DNA of 64,000 nt from Desulfurella acetivorans A63. Lineage in GTDB: Bacteria; Campylobacterota_A; Desulfurellia; Desulfurellales; Desulfurellaceae. Positions 19,701-33,344 of the stretch are shown here, piece by piece (position 1 is the first letter of the stretch; the number at the start of each line of letters is the position of its first letter). Under the pieces are notes generated by a model. It did not search any database, had not been told where the DNA came from, and saw nothing but the letters and a program-made list of their open reading frames with translations. The stretch lies in assembly GCA_000517565.1 (NCBI GenBank), contig CP007051.1, positions 829,039-893,038 of the forward strand, read 5' to 3'. The position numbers and the translations under genes were made by a program.

Positions 19701-20830
19701 GAAACTAAATAACCAGTTGAAAACGCTGCCTGAATGTTAAAACCGCCTATTGGGCCTGCAATGTCTAAAATTTCTCCACAAAAAAATAAGTTACTAACAA
19801 GCTTTGAAGAGCAACTTTTTGGATCTACTTCTTTTAAATTTATTCCACCTTTTGTAACAAAAGCTCTATCAAAACCACATAGTTTTACATTAATTTTATA
19901 ATTGCAAAGTAGTTCAAATGCAAAGTGTATATTTTTTTTTGAAACTTGATTTATATTTTTTTCAATAAATGGAATTTTTTTTGATATATTATTAATAAAG
20001 CGTTTTGGTAAATAATCTTTAATAAGCAATTTTATACTTTTAGCTTTTTCTAATTCTTTAAAAAAAATATCTTTATTTTTTCCTAAAAAATTAATGTTTA
20101 TTATGTCGCAATTTTTAACAAAACATGAAGCTTCTAAAATAACAGGTCCGCTTAAGCCAAAGTGAGTAAAAAGCATATCGCCAGAAAAAATTTTATTTTT
20201 GTATTTTATTTGAACATATAAAGATATTCCACTTAAATTTTCAAATAGGCTATCTTTAATGCAAAACGGCGTTTCAAATGGTTTTGGCGGTATAATTGTA
20301 TGACCAAGAGATTTTGCAAACATATAGCCATCTGCACTTGCACCTAATTTTTTACGTGCTAATCCACCTGTTGCTATGACAAGATTTTTTGATTTGTATA
20401 TGTTTCTTGAAGTATAAACTATAAACGTTTCTTTTTTTTCTATTTTAATGACTTTCTCGTTTTCAACTAGATGAATATTTCTATTTAATATAAAGTTTTT
20501 TAGTTTATTGACAAGAATTTTCCCATTTGAATTCTTCAAAAAAACTTTATTATTTTCGACTTCTATATCAAGATTAAGTGTATTTATAAATCTAAGTAGA
20601 TCATCTCTAAAAAAAATTTTAAATGCATTTCTTAGAAATTCGCCATTTGGAACATAGGCTTTTAAAAATTCGTTTAAATCTGCAAGGTTAGTTAAATTTA
20701 CACGTTCATTTCCTGCAATTGATAATTTTTTGCCCGCTGATTGTTTATCTATAAGAAGGGTTTTGCCTTTACAAAAACAGGCACAAGCAAGTCCACTTGT
20801 ACCTGCTCCAACAATAATAGCGTTATACAA
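19664..20830 (-). CDS. BaiN/HI0933-family flavoprotein
   Basis: A 388-residue FAD protein of the HI0933 (YhiN/BaiN) family. The Rossmann motif NAIIVGAGTSGLACACF is followed by KKLSIAGNERVNLTN, and then GILATGG-type VIATGGLARKKLGASADGYMFAKSLGH, a family signature; the C-terminus has KGGINLKEVDPKSCSSKL and FFCGEILDIAGPIGGFNIQAAFSTG. Cellular role is unsettled in the family. It overlaps mqnD by 8 bases and likely shares its promoter. The 3' end overlaps ccdA on the other strand by 37 bases. Confidence 0.88.
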   Translation of the reverse strand: MYNAIIVGAGTSGLACACFCKGKTLLIDKQSAGKKLSIAGNERVNLTNLADLNEFLKAYVPNGEFLRNAFKIFFRDDLLRFINTLNLDIEVENNKVFLKNSNGKILVNKLKNFILNRNIHLVENEKVIKIEKKETFIVYTSRNIYKSKNLVIATGGLARKKLGASADGYMFAKSLGHTIIPPKPFETPFCIKDSLFENLSGISLYVQIKYKNKIFSGDMLFTHFGLSGPVILEASCFVKNCDIININFLGKNKDIFFKELEKAKSIKLLIKDYLPKRFINNISKKIPFIEKNINQVSKKNIHFAFELLCNYKINVKLCGFDRAFVTKGGINLKEVDPKSCSSKLVSNLFFCGEILDIAGPIGGFNIQAAFSTGYLVSQKLGNLPFTNI

Positions 20831-21647
20831 GCGTTATTTTAGTACTTTTTTTAATCAAACCAGCTTTATATGCTTCATCAAGCAATAGCTGACAGGCTTT
20901 TAATCCGTCTTCTCCCATATCTACTGTTAATTTATTTACATACATACCTATAAATTGATCTGCAAGTGAAGTTTCCATGCCTCTTGCAAATTCTAAAGCA
21001 TAATTTACAGCTTCGCTTCTATGCTCTAAAGAGTATAGAATACTTTTTTGAAGGATATCAGATATTAAACTTTTGTCTTCTAGGTTTTTTTTGATGGAAT
21101 TAACACCAAGGGGAAGAGGCAGTTTTGTTTTTTCATACCACCATTTACCAATATCAAATACATTGTAAAGATTAAAATCTTTATATGTAAGTTGACCTTC
21201 GTGTATTACTAGTCCAGCCTGTGCATCTCCATTTAATACATGATCAAATATTTTATTAAAAGGCACAATAAGTATATCTAAATCTTTGCCAAGCAATAAT
21301 TGTAACTCTAAAAATGCGCTTGTATAAATACCTGGTATGGCAATTTTTGATTTTTTTATTTCATCTAAAGACATAGGTTTTTTTGACACTATAATAGGTC
21401 CATATTTAAAACCCATGCTTGCACCACTTTTTAGTATATCGTACTTATCCTGTATAAGGGGATAAACCGCAAGAGAAATTGCAGTTATATCATATACAGC
21501 TTCAAGTGCTTTTTCATTTAAGGTTTGTATATCGCTTAAAATTTGCTCAAAAGTATATCCGTGTGTCTCTATTGCGTTTATATTTAAAGCATAGAACATA
21601 AATGCATCATCTGAATCAGGGCTATGAGCTAAAGTTAATTTTTTCAT
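20823..21647 (-). CDS. mqnD: 1,4-dihydroxy-6-naphthoate synthase MqnD
   Basis: A 274-residue periplasmic-binding-protein-fold enzyme of the futalosine pathway to menaquinone; it cleaves cyclic dehypoxanthine futalosine to 1,4-dihydroxy-6-naphthoate. The start LTLAHSPDSDDAFMFYAL, the conserved GPIIVSKKPMS, GLVIHEGQLTY and KWWYEKTKLPLPLGVN segments match the family. AGGAGG lies before the ATG and a TTGATA/TATAAT promoter upstream. Another pathway gene (mqnX-like) is at 32191 and ubiX at 40217. Confidence 0.93.
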   Translation of the reverse strand: MKKLTLAHSPDSDDAFMFYALNINAIETHGYTFEQILSDIQTLNEKALEAVYDITAISLAVYPLIQDKYDILKSGASMGFKYGPIIVSKKPMSLDEIKKSKIAIPGIYTSAFLELQLLLGKDLDILIVPFNKIFDHVLNGDAQAGLVIHEGQLTYKDFNLYNVFDIGKWWYEKTKLPLPLGVNSIKKNLEDKSLISDILQKSILYSLEHRSEAVNYALEFARGMETSLADQFIGMYVNKLTVDMGEDGLKACQLLLDEAYKAGLIKKSTKITLV

Positions 21648-21709: not shown

Positions 21710-21738
21710 TTGACTTATATATATGTATTATATAAAAT
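21710..21738 (+). promoter_or_regulatory. Promoter of the GTPase module, probably giving a leaderless message
   Basis: TTGACT (21710-21715), 17-base spacer, TAAAAT (21733-21738). The start is predicted at about 21745, only about 4 bases before the ATG at 21749. There is no ribosome site in between. The TTG of the -35 is in frame with the gene and must not be read as its start. Confidence 0.65.
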
Positions 21739-21748
21739 CACTTATAAG

Positions 21749-22762
21749 ATGCTAAAGGTATTAGATAAAAGCAAGAAAGCTTATTTAGTTTTAGATGATA
21801 ATTTGCTTGCAAAAATCTTGCAGTATATTTTAAGCACAGATGGATGGTCTGTTGATTGGGTTGATGATCCCCGTCAGATTAAAGAAGATATTGCGAATTA
21901 TAATTTAATTATAATAGGAAATCATAAAGGCTTAACTACTAAATCAAAACTTGCCGAAGTTTTTTTAGAAAAAATAAATGCAAATAATTTAGAGCCTGGC
22001 TTTATTAAGCCAACTATCGTCATTTTAAAAGACGAAACAGACATTATTCCAAATACAAAAGATGTTATAAGTATTGTTTATCCATCATTTCATAAAGAAA
22101 TATTTGCAGCTATTTCAAACATTAATAATAAATTCAAAACTTTAGAAAGAATATCTTTTGATAATTTTAAAGAAGTTAGGCTTGGTGAGTTTTTAAATTC
22201 TATTAGAAGTAACCAAAAAATTAGTTTTTTGGTTGGCAATAGACAGCTTAAAATTCTTATAGTGGGAAGTGAAATAAACTTCATACATTCTGATTTTGAA
22301 AATTTTTATGATATATTTAACTATCCAACACTTTATGTTGCCCAAGACATTATAGAGATATCCGATTTATCAAATATATCCAATGAAAGAACTCCAAGAA
22401 TTAGTTTAAAAAATTTCGTTTGGGAAGGGATTAAAAATATTGATAATAAAGAACATCTTATGTCTTTGCTTCCAAAAGATAGAAATATTGTAACTGTAAA
22501 AGCACCACTATATGCCGTAAAAAGCTCTTTATTGCCTGGTAGTAATTTAGATATTAATTGGTTAATGAATAACTCTAATATTAGCGTAGATAAAATTCTA
22601 AGACGATATGGCTATGATATAAGAGTTTTACAAAACCTTGTAGTAATGTACATGTTGAGAATAATTGATTTGTCATCTGATCAAGATTTAACAAATAAGT
22701 TCGATGTAAAGATAAAAAAAGGTGTTTTGCATAAAATTTTAGATAAAATTAGAGGTTTGTAA
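21749..22762 (+). CDS. Degenerate receiver plus PATAN-like protein
   Basis: A 337-residue soluble protein. Residues about 10-120 look like a response-regulator receiver (AYLVLDDNLLAKILQYILSTDGWSVDWVDD) whose phospho-acceptor Asp seems lost: the third strand reads NLIIIGNHKG where LIIID would be expected. Residues about 140-337 match the protein at 17-709, including DINWL, TVKAPLY and LVVMYM blocks. Family label PATAN/DUF4388 is tentative. The gene ends 3 bases before an MglA-like GTPase, so the pair is cotranscribed and the products probably interact. The ATG at 21749 lies just behind the promoter with no ribosome site. Confidence 0.75.
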   Translation: MLKVLDKSKKAYLVLDDNLLAKILQYILSTDGWSVDWVDDPRQIKEDIANYNLIIIGNHKGLTTKSKLAEVFLEKINANNLEPGFIKPTIVILKDETDIIPNTKDVISIVYPSFHKEIFAAISNINNKFKTLERISFDNFKEVRLGEFLNSIRSNQKISFLVGNRQLKILIVGSEINFIHSDFENFYDIFNYPTLYVAQDIIEISDLSNISNERTPRISLKNFVWEGIKNIDNKEHLMSLLPKDRNIVTVKAPLYAVKSSLLPGSNLDINWLMNNSNISVDKILRRYGYDIRVLQNLVVMYMLRIIDLSSDQDLTNKFDVKIKKGVLHKILDKIRGL

Positions 22763-22765
22763 AAA

Positions 22766-23296
22766 ATGGCTATTTACAAAATAATTGTTACAGGTAGTTT
22801 TAATTCAGGTAAAACAGAATTTATTAAATGTATAAGCGAAATTGATCCAATTACAACTGATAAACCGGTTACAGAAGAAGGGTTAAAAGATATAAAAAGT
22901 TTTACTACTGTGGCTATTGATTTTGGCACAATTACAATTGACAAAGAAATTATAATACATATTTACGCAACACCTGGCCAAGAGCGCTTTAAATTTATAT
23001 ACGATATATTAGAAAAAAATGCCCTTGCTTTAATAGTACTTGGAGATATAACGAGTAAAGAATCCGTTTCCAATATGTACAAATATTATCGCGAATTTAT
23101 GAAAATAAAAAGACTGCCTGCGGTATTTGCACTTACAAAAAAGGATTTACCAAATAGAATAGATGATAAGGTTATAGAACAACTACTTTCCAATAAACCA
23201 AAAGACATACCTTTAATTAAGATTTCAAACAAAAACAAAGAAGAAGTAAAGCAAGCGATACTGCTTGCTTTAGAGCAATTAGTTGCAGAAGATTGA
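22766..23296 (+). CDS. MglA-like small Ras-family GTPase
   Basis: A 176-residue single-domain GTPase. P-loop GSFNSGKT (10-17), switch II DxxG replaced by ATPGQERF (68-75), and the guanine-specificity motif TKKD (124-127) are all visible; a FTTVAIDFGTI stretch gives the switch I region. MglA and related bacterial GTPases set cell polarity and work with MglB-type roadblock activators. A roadblock protein is encoded at 24353-24718 on the other strand. The partner ahead is a receiver/PATAN protein. The end lies 7 bases from the convergent sensor gene. Confidence 0.88.
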   Translation: MAIYKIIVTGSFNSGKTEFIKCISEIDPITTDKPVTEEGLKDIKSFTTVAIDFGTITIDKEIIIHIYATPGQERFKFIYDILEKNALALIVLGDITSKESVSNMYKYYREFMKIKRLPAVFALTKKDLPNRIDDKVIEQLLSNKPKDIPLIKISNKNKEEVKQAILLALEQLVAED

Positions 23297-23303
23297 TTTT
23301 AGA

Positions 23304-24341
23304 TTAATCTTTAAAGCCTATCCTTAAAGCGCCCCAATGCTTTCCATTGATCATTACAGGCATGGAGATGTCATACATAATTTTGCCAAGGTCTCTTGGA
23401 TATATTTGAAATAAAATAGGATCTGTATTTTTTGCAGCGGCAAGACCTGTTGGGTCATTAAATATGCGCATTGATCGGTTTCCTGCAAGGTCTTTTTGAT
23501 AATCGCCTGTTAGTGGTTGATCATATATTGTATTGTGCGCGGGTAAATAACCGTTTTCATCAACCAACACTACAAAAACAAATTTTTTGTTTAGATTTAG
23601 TACTTCATCTTCAATTGGTTGAATGAATTTTTTCATGAAATCAGTAAATTTTGTTTTGTATTTTTGAGGGTTTGTATTTTCTATTGGGATATAATTTCTA
23701 TCCCAGAGTTCTTCTTCGGATATCACACCATCCTTTAGTGCATTTTCTATTGTAGTTTGTATTTTTTCTACAGATGATTTTAAAATTTCATAAATTGATT
23801 TAAAAGCATCATCTTCTTCAAAGATAAAACTCATAATACAATCTTGAGGTTCTTTTTTCATGTAGCCTTTTTCTTCTTTTTTCATTTTGGGTGTTAAAAA
23901 TGAAAGTGTATTTTTAGCTAAAACATCAAAATATGTAGAAAAAAGTGGAGGGTATGGACATACGCTAGTATCAACTGGACCGCCACCTACACCAACTGGG
24001 CAAAACATACAAGAGTCTTTTCTAATGTTTATTGTAGCTATCATTTTTGAATTTTCTTGAGTAATAGATACATTGTAATGATTTGCAAATTGGAGGTATT
24101 CGTTTAAAGCATCAAGGGCTTTTTTAATGTTAATATCCAGACTATCTTGTGGATTGAATTTTGGCAACAGATTTTTATACATTTGATGCAATACTAACCT
24201 TTGCGCTGTTGCTTTCATTGCAGGCACTATTATGGCTTGATTCATTATACCCAAATCATAAGAAGACCCAACCAAAGATGCCCAAAAAACATGAGCACCA
24301 GTCAATTTTTCAAGTCGTTCTTTTTTCTCTTCTTCGCTCAC
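23304..24341 (-). CDS. Orphan sensor protein with cysteine motif and chemoreceptor-type C-terminal domain
   Basis: A 345-residue soluble protein. The C-terminal 90 residues (FVFVVLVDENGYLPAHN..., GNRSMRIFNDPTGLAAAKNTDPILFQIYPRDLG..., GKHWGALRIGF) match a domain found at the end of some methyl-accepting chemotaxis proteins. The N-terminal part is unknown to me; it holds C111-M-F-C114 and C128 in a CPVGVGGGPVDTSVCP stretch that could bind metal or heme. There is no methyl-accepting, kinase or GGDEF output domain. It starts at a GTG with AAAGGAG ahead, 11 bases after the roadblock gene, so both form one operon. It probably feeds a signal to the GTPase switch. Confidence 0.7.
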   Translation of the reverse strand: MSEEEKKERLEKLTGAHVFWASLVGSSYDLGIMNQAIIVPAMKATAQRLVLHQMYKNLLPKFNPQDSLDINIKKALDALNEYLQFANHYNVSITQENSKMIATINIRKDSCMFCPVGVGGGPVDTSVCPYPPLFSTYFDVLAKNTLSFLTPKMKKEEKGYMKKEPQDCIMSFIFEEDDAFKSIYEILKSSVEKIQTTIENALKDGVISEEELWDRNYIPIENTNPQKYKTKFTDFMKKFIQPIEDEVLNLNKKFVFVVLVDENGYLPAHNTIYDQPLTGDYQKDLAGNRSMRIFNDPTGLAAAKNTDPILFQIYPRDLGKIMYDISMPVMINGKHWGALRIGFKD

Positions 24342-24352
24342 AATACGCTCCT

Positions 24353-24718
24353 TTACGACATTAATTCTTTTAGTTTTTTTGATGTGTTTTTAATGTCCAA
24401 ATAAAGCAAACCCAGCTTTACATCAGGTTTTGCAAGCACAATTAAAACTGCTTCACTGCCAGCTGATGTCAATATAATGTAGCCTTTATCACCTTTAACT
24501 GTAACCTGCTCAGGTACGCCTTTTTCTAATTCGTCCACTGCCCGCTCACCCAATGTTAGCAATGCAGCTGACATTGCAGCAACCCTGTCTTCATCAAAAT
24601 TAGCTGGCAACTGTGAGCTTATCATCAAACCATCCGAACTAACTAAAGCTGAACCTTCAATTTGCGGATTTAATCTAACTAATTCTGCCAATTGAGCATT
24701 GAGATCTTCTTCTTTCAT
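24353..24718 (-). CDS. MglB-like roadblock/LC7 protein
   Basis: A 121-residue roadblock/LC7 domain protein. LAELVRLNPQIEGSALVSSDGLMISSQLP, DRVAAMSAALLTLGERAVDEL, VTVKGDKGYIILTSAGSEAVLIVLAKPDVKLGLLYLDIKNTSKKL follow the family pattern along the whole chain. MglB is the GTPase-activating partner of MglA in Myxococcus and Thermus, and the MglA-like gene lies 1 kb away facing this one. AGGAGG-like GGAGG precedes the ATG, and a strong TTGACA/TATAAA promoter lies upstream. Confidence 0.9.
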   Translation of the reverse strand: MKEEDLNAQLAELVRLNPQIEGSALVSSDGLMISSQLPANFDEDRVAAMSAALLTLGERAVDELEKGVPEQVTVKGDKGYIILTSAGSEAVLIVLAKPDVKLGLLYLDIKNTSKKLKELMS

Positions 24719-24801: not shown

Positions 24802-26418
24802 TTAATTAGTTAGCATATTATAGTAAATTTTATCTTTAAAGTCTCTAAATATTGTTTGTATTGCTTTTTTTGTATATTCTATTGAATTTGATATATACAT
24901 ATTATTTTTTAAAATCATATTTGAAAGAATTGCTGGATTTTTATCTAAAAAAATTTTGTATTCGTTTTTTGAGAATCGCAAAAACCCTATCTCAATTGAG
25001 TGCAAGTGTTTTATTTGTTTTAAAAAACTTACAAAACTTTCATATTGACTTAAAAATTCACCAAAAAAGGGATCAAAACGAATGCCAATATTAAAACCAG
25101 CATTATCTAATAATTTTATCGCTTCAAGCCTCCTTGGCAGGCTTGGTGTTAAATATTCAAACTTTTCTATCGCATTTTGCGGTGCAAGGGAAAAAGCAAT
25201 TATTGTATTTTTAAAAGGTTTGTGTTGTAATAATTCTTTAACATTGGCTGATTTTGTCCTAATTTCTAATATTGCATCGAGATTTTCAAAGAACTCAGCA
25301 AATTTAATATAGCTTTTGTCAAAAATACTTAAAGCTATAGGATCAGAAAATGTTCCAAGGTAAAAGTACATTGGCCTTAGTTTATCTTTTGAGAGAATTT
25401 TTTTTATTTGCTCAAAATAATCTTCTATGTTTTTGAAAATAACAGGATTGAATGTTTTAAAATATCCTTTTAAGAAGCAATATGAACAATCGTATATGCA
25501 GTTATAAGATTGAAGAATTGAGTATCCATAAGTATTTTGTGGTGTGTAATGATCTGGAGTTTTCCTTAGAAATTCTCCTTTCTTATTTGCATAAATAACT
25601 GCGCATTTATCTTTTAAATTGTGAAAAATACCAACATAGTCGTCAATTTTTATATATTTTTGTTTAACATGTATTTCACTAAAGCTACGTTTAAGTTTAA
25701 ATGGTTTTTTGATAATTTCTGTAGAATTAATAAGAATTTTTTTATAGATATTTTGACGCATTGTAAACGTGTAGTGTTTTTTTTCAAAAAGCCTTTTTAA
25801 ACCAAAAAGTACTTTTACATCGAGAATGTGCGTTTTTACAAAAATTTCTGTTAGGTTATTATTTGCTATTATTTTAAAAGTATTTATCACATCTAAAGCT
25901 TTGGAGTAATCAATTGTAATAAATTTATTAGTTATATCATTATTATCACTTATAAGTTTTACAATAAGGCCTTTTGTATTTAATTGATTAAGTGCTTTTG
26001 CAAAAAAGTAGGCTTCCATATCAATACAATCACCAAATAGACTTAGATCTTTATTTAGTGCATAACTACCAAAAACGCTTATACAATCAACATTTTTAAA
26101 ACCATTAACTGTATTTAGTTCTACAGGGTTTAATAATGGTGATAGACTCGTGTCAAATAATTTGGTCTTTTTAGCTATTATTATCTCACCTATTTTTAAG
26201 TCTGATATATTTCCTGCTGTGCCAAATAGAATGCTTAAATCCGGTTTAAGTGTCTCGTTTAACTTTGTAAATTCAAAAGCAAGGTTCAATGCGCCTTTTC
26301 CGAAGTTTACATATATTGCTATACCTTCTGTTAGGTATAAATTGCGTTGCTTTTGAGCCTTGAAATATTCAATAAATGGTTTTGCTTCGTTGTAGTGTTC
26401 GCAACATAAAAGCAACAT
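24802..26418 (-). CDS. Fusion: nucleosidase-like domain plus SPL-type radical SAM domain
   Basis: A 538-residue two-domain protein. Residues 1 to about 175 follow the PNP/UDP phosphorylase and MTA/SAH nucleosidase fold: LFGTAGNISDLKIGEIIIAKKTKLFDTS, then CIDMEAYFFAKALNQ with E135, and VKLISDNND with D158, matching the catalytic ME and SD positions of MTAN. Residues about 270-538 resemble the spore photoproduct lyase group of radical SAM enzymes, with the cluster motif C307-IYD-C311-SY-C314 after QSYNCIYDC. No cysteine follows the cluster, so the hydrogen-donor cysteine of true photoproduct lyase seems absent (TFSD at 356-359 where I expect it). The gene overlaps the LolA-like stop or start by one base and ends the operon. 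The reaction is unknown. Confidence 0.75.
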   Translation of the reverse strand: MLLLCCEHYNEAKPFIEYFKAQKQRNLYLTEGIAIYVNFGKGALNLAFEFTKLNETLKPDLSILFGTAGNISDLKIGEIIIAKKTKLFDTSLSPLLNPVELNTVNGFKNVDCISVFGSYALNKDLSLFGDCIDMEAYFFAKALNQLNTKGLIVKLISDNNDITNKFITIDYSKALDVINTFKIIANNNLTEIFVKTHILDVKVLFGLKRLFEKKHYTFTMRQNIYKKILINSTEIIKKPFKLKRSFSEIHVKQKYIKIDDYVGIFHNLKDKCAVIYANKKGEFLRKTPDHYTPQNTYGYSILQSYNCIYDCSYCFLKGYFKTFNPVIFKNIEDYFEQIKKILSKDKLRPMYFYLGTFSDPIALSIFDKSYIKFAEFFENLDAILEIRTKSANVKELLQHKPFKNTIIAFSLAPQNAIEKFEYLTPSLPRRLEAIKLLDNAGFNIGIRFDPFFGEFLSQYESFVSFLKQIKHLHSIEIGFLRFSKNEYKIFLDKNPAILSNMILKNNMYISNSIEYTKKAIQTIFRDFKDKIYYNMLTN

Positions 26419-26909
26419 TAAAAATCAAATATTATAATATTGCCATAAACATCTGTGATTTTAATTTTTTTAAGTTTTTGGTTAGTTAAAGAAAGCTCAA
26501 CTTGTGCAATGTTTGTTTTTTGTTGTGGTGTAAGCAAAAAGCTACCATTTGTTTTTTTAATATCAAAAATTGAATTAATGTTTTCTTTTCCTAAAAAAAG
26601 ATTGTATAAAACTTGATTAAAACCTTCAAGAGGGTAAACTTTAGTGCTATTGTCTATAGTATCATATACTTTTGCGTCTTTTAGTTTTACTGTTTCATCT
26701 TTATATGTAAAAACCATGTATTGTCCTTTTTTTATTGTCAATATACCATTTCTTTCAATTTTTTGTTTTGTCATTGCATTTATTGCAATTTGTTTAAAAG
26801 GCAAGACCTGGTAATTCTTAAGAGAAATACCCAAATCTTTTAAGGTATAGGCAAAAGCACTAGTTGTGAGCAAGACCAACAAGCTTGCTAACATCATCAA
26901 TTTCTTCAT
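26418..26909 (-). CDS. LolA-like periplasmic protein
   Basis: A 163-residue exported protein with signal peptide MKKLMMLASLLVLLTTSAFA. The remainder fits the LolA pattern (FKQIAINAMTKQKIERNGILTIKKGQYMVFTYKDE..., ending ITDVYGNIIIFDF), a half-barrel that ferries lipoproteins from the inner to the outer membrane. Length is a little short for LolA (about 180-200). It starts inside pyrD with a 50-base overlap, so its translation is coupled to the pyrimidine genes. Assignment rests on pattern and export signal. Confidence 0.65.
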   Translation of the reverse strand: MKKLMMLASLLVLLTTSAFAYTLKDLGISLKNYQVLPFKQIAINAMTKQKIERNGILTIKKGQYMVFTYKDETVKLKDAKVYDTIDNSTKVYPLEGFNQVLYNLFLGKENINSIFDIKKTNGSFLLTPQQKTNIAQVELSLTNQKLKKIKITDVYGNIIIFDF

Positions 26910-27771
26910 TTTCTAAATACCTCATTATTCCATCTATAATTTTTAAACTAATATCTGGTTCAACAAAATTAGCTGTACCAATTTGTATTAAAGATGCTCC
27001 AGCAAGTAAATACTGAATAGCAATATCAGGACTATTTATACCGCCAACTCCAATTATTGGTATATTTATTTTTTCATAGGTTTCATAAACCATTCTAAGA
27101 CCCACTGGATAAATAGCTGGTCCACTTAATCCGCCAAATTTATTTCCAAGGAAAGGTTTTTTTGTTTTTGTATCAATAACCATACCCGTAATAGTGTTTA
27201 TTAAACTTACCGCATCAGCTTTAGCAGATTGAGCCGCCTGTGCAATTAGAGCAATATCTGTAACATTTGGTGTTAATTTTACAATTATTGGTTTTTCGCA
27301 AACTTTTTTTATACTTGATACAAGAACAAATATAACCTCTGGGTCTTTTCCAAATGTAGCTCCGCCTGCTTTAACATTTGGACACGATACATTTACTTCC
27401 AAAGCGGAAATTTGTTTGTAATTATTTAGTTTACTTGCAAGTTCCACAAATTCTCCAATTTCACTACCATAAATATTCACTATTAAGTTTGTATCAATAT
27501 TGTCAAATTGGGGTAAAATATCGCTAACAAATTTATTATAGCCTATATTTTGTAAGCCAATAGAGTTTAGCATACCACATGGAGTTTCTATAATTCTTGG
27601 TGGCGGGTTGCCCTGCCTTGGGTTTAGACTTAAGCCTTTTACTATAATACCGCCAAGAAGCCCTATATCAAAAAATCTATTGTACTCAATTCCGTAACCA
27701 AATGTACCAGAGGCTGTCATTACAGGATTTTTAAATATTAAATTGTTTAATTTTACTGATAGGTTTACCAT
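26860..27771 (-). CDS. pyrD: Dihydroorotate dehydrogenase B, catalytic subunit
   Basis: A 303-residue FMN enzyme oxidising dihydroorotate to orotate, class 1B. It has FKNPVMTASGTFGYG, the active-site cysteine in EVNVSCPNVKAGG, KLTPNVTDI, and the phosphate-binding IIGVGGINSPDIAIQYLLAGASLIQIGTANF. PyrK follows the operon order directly upstream with a 7-base overlap, confirming the NAD-linked B class. The organism therefore makes UMP with the soluble heterotetramer, using NAD rather than quinone. Confidence 0.94.
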   Translation of the reverse strand: MVNLSVKLNNLIFKNPVMTASGTFGYGIEYNRFFDIGLLGGIIVKGLSLNPRQGNPPPRIIETPCGMLNSIGLQNIGYNKFVSDILPQFDNIDTNLIVNIYGSEIGEFVELASKLNNYKQISALEVNVSCPNVKAGGATFGKDPEVIFVLVSSIKKVCEKPIIVKLTPNVTDIALIAQAAQSAKADAVSLINTITGMVIDTKTKKPFLGNKFGGLSGPAIYPVGLRMVYETYEKINIPIIGVGGINSPDIAIQYLLAGASLIQIGTANFVEPDISLKIIDGIMRYLENEEIDDVSKLVGLAHN

Positions 27772-28475
27772 ATTATCTCCGTATAGTTAAAGATTGGCCC
27801 ATCTTTACAAACCTGTTTGTATCCTTTTATTGTGTTTACGCTGCAGCCTAAGCACACACCAAAGCCGCATGCCATGTTTGATTCTAAAGATACATCCACG
27901 CTAAAACCTTTTTCATCTGCAAGTTTACATAAAGCACTAAGCATAGCATTTGGTCCACAAGCATAAACATGATACGAATTATCTAAATGAGCCAGCATAT
28001 CAATAACTGTGCCTTTTATACCAGAAGAGCCATCAATTGTCGCAATAGATCCAAAGTCTACAAAGCAATCCTTAGCTGTATTAAAACCAAAAAAACACTC
28101 CGATTCGATTTTTTGCTCGTCTAAAAAGTTTTTTAAACCAATAAGTGGTGCAACACCAATGCCACCACCTACTAAAGCAAGACGTTTGTATTTTATTTCA
28201 AAATTATTTCCAAAAGGTCCAGTAATGTCAATATATTCACCATTCTTTAAAGCTGATAAAATCTTTGTTCCAAGACCTACAATTTTATAGTATATATCTA
28301 TTGAACTTACAGCTTTAGCTATACTAAATGGCCTTCGAAGTAATGGTTCATTTAAATTATTTACCTTTATCATTAAAAATTGACCTGGTTTATAATCAAA
28401 ACCGTACGGTTTTTGCAGCTTAAGACAATATATATCATTCGCAACTTTATCGTTGCTTAATACTAATGTTTGCAT
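27765..28475 (-). CDS. pyrK: Dihydroorotate dehydrogenase B, electron-transfer subunit
   Basis: A 236-residue FAD/2Fe-2S subunit linking PyrD to NAD. It has the FAD motif RRPFSIAKA, the NAD-binding LALVGGGIGVAPLIGL, and the C-terminal cluster cysteines in CGFGVCLGCSVNTIKGYKQVCKDG. Order and spacing (2 bases after greA, overlap with pyrD) place it in the carB-greA-pyrK-pyrD unit. Confidence 0.94.
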   Translation of the reverse strand: MQTLVLSNDKVANDIYCLKLQKPYGFDYKPGQFLMIKVNNLNEPLLRRPFSIAKAVSSIDIYYKIVGLGTKILSALKNGEYIDITGPFGNNFEIKYKRLALVGGGIGVAPLIGLKNFLDEQKIESECFFGFNTAKDCFVDFGSIATIDGSSGIKGTVIDMLAHLDNSYHVYACGPNAMLSALCKLADEKGFSVDVSLESNMACGFGVCLGCSVNTIKGYKQVCKDGPIFNYTEIIW

Positions 28476-28477
28476 AA

Positions 28478-28948
28478 TTATGATATATCCTCTATTTCAA
28501 AATTTTTTACGCCCGCTGGAACTTTTACAGTTACGATATCTCCAACTTCTTTGCCTAAAAGTGCTAAAGCTATTGGACTGTTTACTGAAATTTTTCCTTC
28601 GTTTGGGTTTGCTTCATCTTCGCCTACTATCATATATTCAACTTCTTCATCTGTGTCGGTATTTAATAACTTTACTTTACAACCAAAGCTTATTTTATCT
28701 TTTGGAACACTATTTGGATCAATTATACAAGCTTTGTTTATTTTGTTAGAAATTTCTGTTATGCGTTTTTCTATGAAAACTTGTTTTTCTTTTGCTGCAT
28801 GATACTCGGCATTTTCACTTAAATCACCTTTAGTACGTGCTTCTTCTATTTCTTTTATAATTTTAGGTCTTTCAATTTTTTGTAACTTTTCTAATTCATC
28901 AATAAGCTTGTTATAGCCTTCTGGTGTAAAAAAAACTTTATTGCTCAT
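28478..28948 (-). CDS. greA: Transcript cleavage factor GreA
   Basis: A 156-residue factor that rescues backtracked RNA polymerase. The N-terminal coiled coil ([18 protein letters not shown]...) carries the tip acidic residues in [21 protein letters not shown], and the C-terminal domain ends [18 protein letters not shown]. Length is normal. It overlaps carB by 11 bases; carB-greA linkage is common. Confidence 0.95.
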
Positions 28949-31900
28949 ATTCTATCTCCTTATAATAATCTTGTATTGCTTTTACATCTATAGTTTGAGA
29001 TTGAATCTTTGCTGTTATGGCTTCTATGCTTGTTAAAGCTCCCCAAACCGTAGTACAGTATGGTATGTTTTTTAATAACGATAATCGCCTGATATGGAAT
29101 GAATCGCTAAAAGAAACCTTACCTGATGGTGTATTTATGACAAAATCTATTTCATCATTAATTATTAAATCAAGTATATTAGGCCTTCCCTCGCTAACTT
29201 TTTTTACATAATATACGTTTTCAAGATTTTTTATCATGTTGTAAGTTCTTTGCGTTGCAAATATCTTAAAACCTAAAGAAACTAATTTTTGTGCAATCTC
29301 ATTTACATAAGCTTTATCTTTATCAGCAAGTGACAAAAATACATTGCCTTTTGTAGGCAAAACTGATCCACTCGCATAAAAAGCCTTATAATAAGCTAAA
29401 GAGAAATTTTTATCAATACCCATAACCTCGCCTGTAGACTTCATTTCTGGTCCCAAAACCACATCTACATCTGGAAACTTAGCAAACGGTAACACTACTT
29501 CTTTTACAGCATAATATTTAGGGACAACTTCTTTAACATTAAGTTCTTTTAGTGTTTTGCCAAGAAGTACTTTTGTTGCAATTTTTGGCCAGGCAACACC
29601 TGTTGCTTTGCTAACAAAAGGTATTGTCCTTGAAGCTCTAGGATTAACTTCGAGAATATAAATAGTATTGTCTTTTATTGCAAATTGTATGTTTATAAAA
29701 CCAATAATCTTTAACTCTTTAGATATGATTTTCGTTTGGCGCTTTAGCTCATCTATTATTTGACTATTTAGAGTTCTAGGAGGTAAAGAACAAGCAGAAT
29801 CTCCTGAGTGCACACCAGCTGCTTCAATATGCTCCATTATACCACAAATAACCGTATCAGTCCCATCTGATAATGCATCAACATCTATTTCAATTGCATC
29901 TTCTAAAAATTTATCTATCAATATAGGGTGATCTCCTGATACTTTAATGGCTTCCTGTGAATATTTTTCCATATGTGATTGGTCGTATACTATCATCATT
30001 GCTCTTCCACCTAGAACATATGAAGGCCTTACTAGCACCGGGTATCCAATTGTATTTGCTATCTCAATTGCTTGCTGTATTGTTGTTGCTGTTGCACTTT
30101 CGGGTTGCTTTAAACCTAATTTATTAATTAGCTGCTTAAATAATTCTCTATCTTCGGCTATATCTATGCTTGATGAGTCTGTACCTAATATTTTAACATT
30201 GTTTTTTTGCAGTTCGCTTGCAAGCTTAAGTGGTGTTTGACCCCCAAATTGCAAAATTACACCTTCTGGATTTTCATTTTCTATAACATTCATAACATCT
30301 TCAAAAGTTAAAGGTTCAAAATAAAGTTTATCTGAAATATCATAATCTGTTGAAACAGTCTCGGGGTTACAATTTATCATGATAGATTCGTAACCTTCTT
30401 CTTTTAATGTAATGCTAGCATGGACGCATGTATAGTCAAATTCTATGCCCTGACCTATTCTATTTGGACCACTGCCTAAAATTACAACCTTTTTTTTGTT
30501 TGATCTCTTGGATTCATTTTCCTCTTCGTAGGTTGAATAAAGGTAAGAAGTATATGATTCAAACTCAGCAGCGCATGTGTCAACCATCTTATATACATTT
30601 TTAATATTCAAACTTTTTCTTAAAGTCCTTATATCTTCTTCTTTTTTATTGACAAGATTTGCAATATATTTGTCTGAAAAACCATACTGTTTAATTTTTT
30701 TAATGTTTTCAATATTTACACCATTTAATTTTATCTCATTTTCCATATCAAGTATTTGTTTTATATTTGCCAGAAACCATTTGTCAATAAATGAATACTT
30801 GTATATTTCATCTATAGACATACCCATTCGCATTGCTTTTGCGATGTAAAATAAGCGTTTACTATTTGGATGAACAATTTTGTCTATAATTTTTACAATA
30901 TCATTTTCTTGGGGATCTTCAAAACCATAGTAATCTAACTCAAGAGATCTTATAGCTTTTTGTAAGGATTCTTTAAATGTGCGACCAATTGCCATAACTT
31001 CGCCTACACTTTTCATCTGCATTCCAATTTCATCTTTTGTGTTAAATTTTTCAAATGTAAAGCGTGGTATTTTGGTTACCACATAATCCAATGTTGGCTC
31101 AAAGCTTGCAGGTGTTTTTTTAGTTATATCGTTTGGTATTTCATCCAAAGTGTAGCCAATGCTTAAAAGTGTTGCAATTTTTGCTATAGGAAAGCCTGTA
31201 GCTTTACTTGCTAAAGCGCTTGAGCGTGATACTCTTGGGTTCATTTCTATTACGTAAAATTCGCCATTTTGGGGATTAACACAAAACTGTATATTGGACC
31301 CACCTGTTTCTACACCTATTTCCCTGATTATTGCAATACTTGCGTCTCTTAAAAGCTGATATTCTTTATCTGTAAGTGTTTGCGCAGGTGCAACTGTGAT
31401 TGAATCTCCTGTATGCACGCCCATTGGATCAAAGTTTTCAATTGAGCAAACTATAACAACGTTATCCGCTTTGTCTCGCATAACTTCAAGCTCAAATTCT
31501 TTCCAACCTATAACGGATTGTTCTACCAATATTTCTTTTATTGGGCTTTGATCCAATCCCCATTTTACAACTGCTTCAAATTCATCTTTGTTATAGGCAA
31601 TACCCGCTCCTGTGCCACCCAATGTAAATGATGGTCTTATAATTACTGGAAACCCTATTTCGCTTACAGCAAGATTTGCTTCTTCAAGGCTTCTTACTAC
31701 AGCTGATTTTGGCGTTTTAAGACCTATTTTGTTCATTGCTTTTTTAAATAATTCCCTGTCTTCAGCCTTTTTTATTGATTCTACATTTGCACCGATAAGT
31801 TTTACATTGTGTTTTTCAAGAATACCTGCTTCATATAAGCCCACAGCTGCATTTAATGCTGTTTGACCACCAAGTGTAGGCAACAAATGCGTAGGCTTTT

Positions 31901-32141
31901 CCTTTGCTATGATTTTTTCTATAAATTCTACGCTTATTGGCTCAATGTAAGTTTTGTTTGCAAACTGAGGATCTGTCATTATTGTAGCTGGGTTTGAGTT
32001 AACTAAAACTACTTCAATGCCTTCTTTTAACAAGGCTCTACAGCTTTGCGTACCAGAATAATCAAATTCACATGCCTGGCCAATTACTATTGGGCCTGAG
32101 CCTATAATAAGGACTTTTTTGATAGATTCGTCTTTTGGCAT
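28938..32141 (-). CDS. carB: Carbamoyl-phosphate synthase large subunit
   Basis: A 1067-residue enzyme making carbamoyl phosphate from ammonia (delivered by CarA), bicarbonate and two ATP, for pyrimidines and arginine. Two homologous ATP-grasp halves are seen: [22 protein letters not shown] opens the first and [20 protein letters not shown] the second, each followed by an ATP-grasp core ([16 protein letters not shown] and [16 protein letters not shown]). The MGS-like allosteric domain forms the last 130 residues. carA is not in the window. It lies behind the deaminase gene with a 49-base gap. Confidence 0.97.
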
Positions 32142-32190: not shown

Positions 32191-33333
32191 TTATTGCAAA
32201 ATTTCTTCAAGCGCATTGTTTGTAGATGCTCTTATAAAGAAAGGATAAGCATAAAATCCTTTTTTAAAGCCAATTTTTAAATTTAGTGCATTGTAACCCC
32301 CCAGTGTGGCTAATTCAAAAAAATAAGCAGGATCAATTGTGCTATAATATTTATATAAAAATTTCAACTCATTGATAATGCTTAAATCCCAGTTACTAGC
32401 AAGAGAATCTGTGCCAATTGCCACATTTATACCAGACTTTTTTAGTAACTCTAAATTTGGAAGAGTTTTGCTAATATAATAATTACTGCGTGGCGATATT
32501 ACAATACTTGAGCCTTTAGATTTTAAAAAGTCAATTTCATGAGGTTTGATATATACACAATGAACAAATAAACCTTTTTTTATGTCTCCTAAGCTTTTTA
32601 TGTATTCAAGTGCACTTGGATAATGTAATTTGTCTTCTATTAAACCCTTTTGTTGAAGCATTTCATATAAATCTCCACAGGAATTGGCAAATAGATTTTC
32701 ATATTCACTTTCTAAAAAATGCAAACTGAACAAGTCGTTTCCAATCTTTAAATTGTTTTTGAGCAATGTATATTTTAATAAGTTTTTGTGTGTAGAATAA
32801 ATAGAATGCGCACTAACATAAATTTTTACGTATTTTTTTTGTTTTATATTGTCAATATTATTTTCGATATAGGTAATTTTTTCATTTGCTATATCTTTTT
32901 TTAGTGAATAATTTTCAAAAAAAATAATAGGTTTTGGTATTTTAGTAAGATAATCTGCAGTTTTTAAAGTGTTGCTAATATCTGCAAGCGCGCAAACTCC
33001 ATTTTTAATTTGAGTGTCAACTGCAATTTTGATAGAATTTTGTAATTGGTTTTCATTATCTTGTTTTTTGCTTTCTATCATTGTTTTAAGCCAGTTTACA
33101 AATCCCAGATATGGCTCAATTTTTATATTTGAAAGTTCAAGATGTGTATGTGCGTTAACAAAACCACTAAACAATACACCTTCTCCATAATCTATAAAAT
33201 TCGAAAGCGGGTAGAGTTTTTTTGCAACTTTAAGTGGTAATAAATCTATTACAATATTATTTTCAAGTACACATGCTGTTTGCTTTCTAAGCTTTTTACC
33301 ATCAAACAACCATTTAGCATAAACTATTTCCAT
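32191..33333 (-). CDS. mqnX: Aminofutalosine deaminase-like amidohydrolase
   Basis: A 380-residue metal-dependent amidohydrolase. The metal motif is NAHTHLELSN, with a second histidine site in VSAHSIYSTH and SLHFLESEYE, and a TDSLASNWDLSIINELKFL C-terminal motif, all in the order of the ATZ/TRZ group that includes the deaminase acting on 6-amino-6-deoxyfutalosine in Campylobacterota. The gene at 20823 (mqnD) shows the pathway is present. I start at the ATG at 33333; a TTG directly before it is in frame. No ribosome site is seen, and the promoter lies very close. Guanine or other deaminase activity cannot be ruled out by sequence. Confidence 0.72.
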   Translation of the reverse strand: MEIVYAKWLFDGKKLRKQTACVLENNIVIDLLPLKVAKKLYPLSNFIDYGEGVLFSGFVNAHTHLELSNIKIEPYLGFVNWLKTMIESKKQDNENQLQNSIKIAVDTQIKNGVCALADISNTLKTADYLTKIPKPIIFFENYSLKKDIANEKITYIENNIDNIKQKKYVKIYVSAHSIYSTHKNLLKYTLLKNNLKIGNDLFSLHFLESEYENLFANSCGDLYEMLQQKGLIEDKLHYPSALEYIKSLGDIKKGLFVHCVYIKPHEIDFLKSKGSSIVISPRSNYYISKTLPNLELLKKSGINVAIGTDSLASNWDLSIINELKFLYKYYSTIDPAYFFELATLGGYNALNLKIGFKKGFYAYPFFIRASTNNALEEILQ

Positions 33334-33344
33334 CAAAGTTATTT

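Follow-up and report, generated by a model that had tools for sequence, protein, structure and literature searches.

In the futalosine pathway, the radical SAM (rSAM) enzyme MqnE works with an MTAN-type hydrolase, MTAN/MqnB, which cuts the adenosylated product of MqnE. The succession of MqnE and MTAN/MqnB is an established precedent. MTAN (Pfs/MtnN) has the catalytic residues E12, E174 and D197. CT263 of Chlamydia trachomatis is a short, standalone protein with the MTAN fold and without an rSAM fusion, and it has a role in menaquinone synthesis. The spore photoproduct lyases (SPL) of Bacillus subtilis and Geobacillus thermodenitrificans (Gt) have a radical SAM fold, a CxxxCxxC motif and the Pfam domain PF20903. 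The SPL mutants C141A and Y99F carry out repair, but SAM regeneration stops (PMC3742179). 5'-Deoxyadenosine is an inhibitor of radical SAM enzymes that a nucleosidase or a phosphorylase clears (PMC6079011, PMC8102628), and SAH nucleosidase is added in LipA assays (PMC13232139). Biotin synthase of E. coli is supported by a separate MTAN, according to the citations of Choi-Rhee and Cronan (2005) in PMC6079011 and PMC8102628.

In the window, which is the whole 64,000-nucleotide stretch of Desulfurella acetivorans A63 DNA that was analysed, a single uninterrupted open reading frame encodes P0001, a protein that joins an MTAN-like domain to an SPL-like rSAM domain (Table 1). The first-pass annotation of this DNA had proposed such a two-domain layout, which is borne out by Pfam matches and by predicted structure. 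Homologues from relatives in the order Desulfurellales are 41-87% identical. Because the frame is unbroken at 43-87% identity in relatives, chance and a frameshift artefact are ruled out and the fusion is real. It is present in 17 of the 18 other Desulfurellales genomes searched, and a distant version occurs in one Bacillota lineage, which answers the earlier suggestion that the same fusion be sought elsewhere. The gene extends over two contigs in G010 and is truncated by a contig end in G017. In G014, the one remaining genome (88% complete), no match to the fusion is found. E11, D133, E135, S157, D158, the CxxxCxxC motif and F315 are invariant among the 16 order-level fusions aligned.

Table 1. 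Positions of the fusion gene, its domains and residues, its upstream genes and the related gene clusters. Coordinates without a locus prefix are those of the window.
Feature	Coordinates	Strand	Evidence
538-aa fusion gene P0001 (nucleosidase, linker, SPL-like radical SAM)	24802..26418	-	Open reading frame, translation, full-length homologues
Residues 1-164, MTAN-like nucleoside hydrolase domain	25927..26418	-	PF01048 above cut-off; domain model; PDB matches
E11, counterpart of MTAN E12	26386..26388	-	Alignment with E. coli MTAN; invariant in the order
E135, counterpart of MTAN E174	26014..26016	-	Alignment with E. coli MTAN; conservation
D158, counterpart of MTAN D197 (general acid)	25945..25947	-	Alignment with E. 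coli MTAN; conservation
Residues 165-271, linker and N-terminal part of SPL-like domain	25606..25926	-	Conservation in the order; domain borders from HMMs
Residues 272-524, SPL-like radical SAM domain	24847..25605	-	PF20903; top Foldseek matches are SPL structures
CxxxCxxC (C307, C311, C314), presumed [4Fe-4S] ligands	25477..25500	-	Translation; order alignment
F315 at the SPL Y98 (Gt) position	25474..25476	-	phmmer alignment with 4k9r/4fhg
T356 at the SPL C140 (Gt) position	25351..25353	-	phmmer alignment with 4k9r/4fhg; tally of 127 homologues
Upstream genes carB-greA-pyrK-pyrD-lolA	26418..32141	-	Same order upstream of the fusion in relatives
Nucleosidase/GT2/ParB-like/SPL-like rSAM cluster	L171:427-3990, L183:1564-4987, L196:776-3764, L199:924-3915, L208:340-3825

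The start codon of the fusion is overlapped by lolA by one base. The carB-greA-pyrK-pyrD-lolA block with the fusion as its last gene is common to the window and 10 other Desulfurellales loci, compared only as far as their contigs extend. This is a pyrimidine and housekeeping operon and is uninformative as a clue to function. On the other side of the fusion (window 21710-24718) lies what may be an MglA/MglB-like polarity set, with genes for a Roadblock/LC7 protein, a Ras-like small GTPase and two products that no Pfam family matches. PADLOC gives no meaningful match, and identity as a defence system was rejected. In the paper library searched, there was no paper linking SPL with SAH nucleosidase and none naming an SPL-family rSAM.

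The N-terminal domain of P0001 matches PNP_UDP_1 (PF01048) at 32.7 bits, above the Pfam cut-off of 25.1. When the domain is modelled alone (pLDDT 89), almost all of the top 50 PDB matches are MTAN, with TMq up to 0.81; the similarly short CT263 is among the structural matches of P0001. E135 in DME and D158 in SDNND, named in the first-pass annotation, are confirmed in the translation and are kept in every rSAM-linked nucleosidase aligned. The third MTAN catalytic residue, E11, was absent from that annotation and completes the set. Unlike MTAN, the domain is fused to an rSAM. It is 19% identical to E. coli MTAN and falls below the MTAN equivalog cut-offs (22.3 vs 169 bits; 21.8 vs 73.8 bits). 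Its length is approximately 165 aa, compared with approximately 230 aa for full-length MTAN, and it has about 40 residues fewer than classical MTAN. Aligned with E. coli MTAN, it lacks a segment between about residues 88 and 107 and has shorter loops elsewhere. A first domain lacking a nucleoside pocket had been named as an outcome that would refute the proposal, and it is not what is found: the hydrolase active site residues are intact and the model matches MTAN. The N-terminal domain is very probably an active hydrolase.

The C-terminal domain matches SPL (PF20903) over residues 284-471 at 55.7 bits, above the Pfam cut-off of 27. It misses the SPL equivalog TIGR04070 (NCBIfam) by a wide interval, scoring 67.4 bits where the cut-off is 400. 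An AlphaFold2 model from the window protein and 12 relatives has a pLDDT of 82.6 and a pTM of 0.73. In a Foldseek comparison with solved structures, this model matches SPL first (E 1e-13, 4fhf) and MTAN next (E 6e-10), so that structure prediction recovers a described fold for each half. The translation contains the CxxxCxxC motif at 307/311/314 and no cysteine afterwards, as first reported. P0001 shares one tyrosine with SPL, with Y313 at the position of Y96 (Gt). It differs from SPL at the hydrogen-donor cysteine C140 (C141 in B. subtilis) and at Y98 (Y99 in B. subtilis), a tyrosine of the SAM-regeneration relay, which are replaced by T356 and F315.

SPL-like rSAM loci were collected from about 440 genomes and comprise 127 distinct loci, 113 of which are outside Desulfurellales. 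The loci have flanks of 1.5-3 kb, some of which are cut by contig ends, and all neighbour counts are lower bounds; part of the set that was counted with the HMMs had also served to train them. Outside the order, at least 26 of the 113 loci have a nucleosidase within the examined stretch, and in at least 22 it is fused or lies on the same strand at a distance of no more than 300 bp. A ParB-like gene is adjacent on the same strand in at least 70 of the 113 loci and a GT2 gene is present in at least 22. The distant Bacillota fusions include L041 (24% identity) and L059. In G275 and G138, the distant fusion is downstream of a peptidyl-tRNA hydrolase gene. In G142 and G351, the nucleosidase and the rSAM are separate, touching genes. 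Where the two genes are separate they usually overlap, in either gene order. A gene read from the sequence as mtnA (methylthioribose-1-phosphate isomerase) is divergent from the pair in G351 (L062:2151-3203). Seven of the 28 nucleosidase-profile matches adjoin an SPL-like gene, with a chance probability of approximately 1e-13 under the rough assumption of six neighbour genes per 3000-gene genome and with relatedness ignored.

In the FastTree phylogeny of the 127 rSAM domains, there is a clade of 29 with a support of 98, which is local SH-like support only. This clade includes all Desulfurellales and Bacillota fusions and the separate pairs L127, L241, L181, L182, L226, L227 and L229-L235. L226 and L233 fall below a second nucleosidase profile, but the first profile matches both at about 46 bits. 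One member, L040, is cut by a contig start. Every member of the clade with a complete locus is, as far as the sequences show, linked to a nucleosidase. The remaining nucleosidase-linked loci are scattered over the sister group, and the change count on the tree for the state "fused or adjacent" is nine. The nucleosidase-linked clade, the fusions and the separate adjacent pairs support functional coupling of the nucleosidase to the rSAM domain, which we regard as highly likely.

At the position of SPL C140, the 127 homologues contain E (90), T (13), Y (10), Q (8), H (3), D (2) or S (1), and none contains a cysteine. A conserved cysteine at this position in a homologue, the other outcome that had been named as refuting the proposal, is thus not found either. 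In the two Bacillota fusions, a cysteine lies two residues past this position. The missing SPL cysteine had been singled out as a feature of P0001. It is indeed absent from this protein, but its absence marks the whole SPL-like family, which is mostly standalone, and therefore does not alone explain the fusion. Loss of the cysteine was rejected as a hallmark of fusion. The clade of 29 is set apart by other residues. Among the 98 sister-group members, the glutamate at the C140 position is kept in 87 and the three cysteines of an upstream trio are present in 92, 76 and 91. In the clade of 29, the glutamate occurs in only three members and cysteine is not among the commonest residues at the three trio columns. 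At the level of the alignment, the nucleosidase-linked clade has lost the trio and usually the glutamate, and this is a genuine subfamily difference. The loss is confined to one clade, so it counts as one event and not as independent evidence. The trio (KxCPG...CC) lies just before CxxxCxxC in most standalone SPL-like rSAM sequences (for example, L061:281-1327) and is a possible extra metal site.

The linker of P0001 contains a conserved helix around T-F-T-x-R-Q-x-x-Y-K in the order alignment. An origin of the linker as a remnant of the C-terminal domain of the ParB-like partner was rejected, as HHalign gives no significant match. The separate nucleosidases of L127, L181, L182, L227, L229-L232, L234, L235 and L241, however, carry C-terminal extensions that as a group match this ParB-like domain (96.5%, E 1e-9). 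A T-x-x-Q motif is seen by eye in both the linker and the ParB-like C-terminal domain and is not counted as evidence.

The best explanation for the fusion is that its main purpose is the removal of 5'-deoxyadenosine, a reading with roughly an even chance of being correct. P0001 would be a bifunctional enzyme. The C-terminal domain would cleave SAM at a [4Fe-4S] cluster and act on some substrate. Without the cysteine/tyrosine relay of SPL, it would leave SAM unregenerated, and every turnover would yield 5'-deoxyadenosine, which is inhibitory to radical SAM enzymes. The MTAN-like domain would then hydrolyse 5'-deoxyadenosine to adenine and 5-deoxyribose beside its place of formation. This self-cleaning model follows from unregenerated SAM together with a product that is both inhibitory and cleaved by nucleosidases. 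The nucleosidase activity, the consumption of SAM and 5'-deoxyadenosine as the actual substrate are all predicted from sequence. SAM as a consumed co-substrate was part of the first-pass annotation. Replacement of the relay residues favours it, and it is reasonable if the chemistry is SPL-like, since the C141A and Y99F mutants of SPL stop regenerating SAM. The proposal resembles the support of biotin synthase in E. coli, where a nucleosidase also clears inhibitory 5'-deoxyadenosine for radical SAM enzymes. It differs in that E. coli MTAN is a general, separate enzyme, whereas this hydrolase is fused or adjacent to one rSAM. Outside the order, no nucleosidase lies in the examined stretch of 87 of the 113 SPL-like loci, which indicates that SPL-like radical chemistry does not always need one nearby. 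Against 5'-deoxyadenosine removal as the main purpose, the N-terminal domain may simply be the general MTAN of the cell, because the four fusion or paired genomes checked contain no other E. coli-type MTAN. At L028:1474-3484, a class II purine nucleoside phosphorylase gene overlaps a gene resembling a 5'-deoxyadenosine/MTA deaminase, which may give the A63 genome a second route for 5'-deoxynucleosides.

Coupling within a pathway is an unlikely alternative that accounts for a dedicated, conserved and repeatedly fused pair. The rSAM would attach a 5'-deoxyadenosyl group to a substrate, as MqnE does, and the nucleosidase would then remove adenine from the product. The genes for a GT2 glycosyltransferase and a ParB-like protein that accompany the pair in several genomes also look more like a pathway than housekeeping. 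However, most SPL-like rSAM genes are without a local nucleosidase, and no addition-specific sequence feature was identified. The MqnE system further differs from P0001 in that its genes are separate and MqnE belongs to another rSAM family, which is additionally present in the A63 genome.

The first-pass annotation offered aminofutalosine cleavage as an alternative for the nucleosidase domain. In its fullest form, the domain would be mainly the aminofutalosine/futalosine (and MTA/SAH) hydrolase of Desulfurellales and the rSAM fusion would be secondary, which is improbable. MqnA/MqnD-type genes are present in all 19 order genomes searched and an MqnE/MqnC-type tandem in all three order genomes checked. 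The PF01048 genes found other than the fusion encode class II PNP, the A63 copy of which adjoins a TRZ/ATZ deaminase, and a check of the A63 genome for a separate mtn/pfs gene, as had been suggested, found none. The window contains a PF02621 gene of the MqnA/MqnD type (20823-21647, minus strand; 228 bits) and, upstream of carB, an aminofutalosine-deaminase-like amidohydrolase gene (32191-33336, minus strand) that scores 166 bits against a PRK08418 cut-off of 320. These two genes are outside the fusion operon, however, and neither was found beside the fusion in the other Desulfurellales loci. P0001 has no match to the futalosine hydrolase model TIGR03664 at E up to 1. MqnE is not found in the fusion genomes G275 and G138 or in the paired genome G142, where the best scores are 33-41 bits compared with 446-498 for real ones. 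Because these three genomes are without MqnE, aminofutalosine is not why the pair exists, and its cleavage as a general role is ruled out by this distribution. Within Desulfurellales it may be a second role, since no other MTAN/MqnB gene is found, which leaves the N-terminal domain as the strongest candidate there for the MqnB step.

In several loci, the pair is part of a larger neighbourhood. The gene order nucleosidase, GT2, ParB-like protein (or its C-terminal part) and SPL-like rSAM is found in L171, L183 and L196/L199, and L208 encodes nucleosidase and GT2 as a single fused protein. The GT2 of this module is a specific glycosyltransferase with the motif HGKxVNPxKKHxK..GG, and several ParB-like partners have ParB_N and HTH_ParB matches. 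The literature search found no description of the module, and this recurring neighbourhood appears to be undescribed. A GT2 partner in the A63 genome was sought and rejected, with a best match of 104 bits compared with 288-441 for clear members. The Desulfurellales fusion could be a condensed form of this module of many bacterial families, in which the nucleosidase would de-adenylate the 5'-deoxyadenosyl product of the rSAM in a pathway whose target would be a nucleic acid or a cofactor, but this is quite doubtful. An SPL-type DNA repair enzyme with an accessory nucleosidase is highly improbable: the PF20903 match and the SPL fold favour it, and the ParB-like gene that often adjoins related rSAM genes hints at DNA, but a true SPL was rejected on T356, F315 and the equivalog score.

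If removal of 5'-deoxyadenosine is the main reason for the fusion, evolution has built a remedy for this product into one rSAM enzyme, both by fusion and as overlapping pairs in unrelated bacteria. This would offer a direct way into a widespread and uncharacterised family of SPL-like rSAM proteins, whose present name comes from a spore repair enzyme that they do not resemble closely enough to match. Radical SAM enzymes that turn over poorly could also be engineered by this rule, with an MTAN either fused to them or paired with them.
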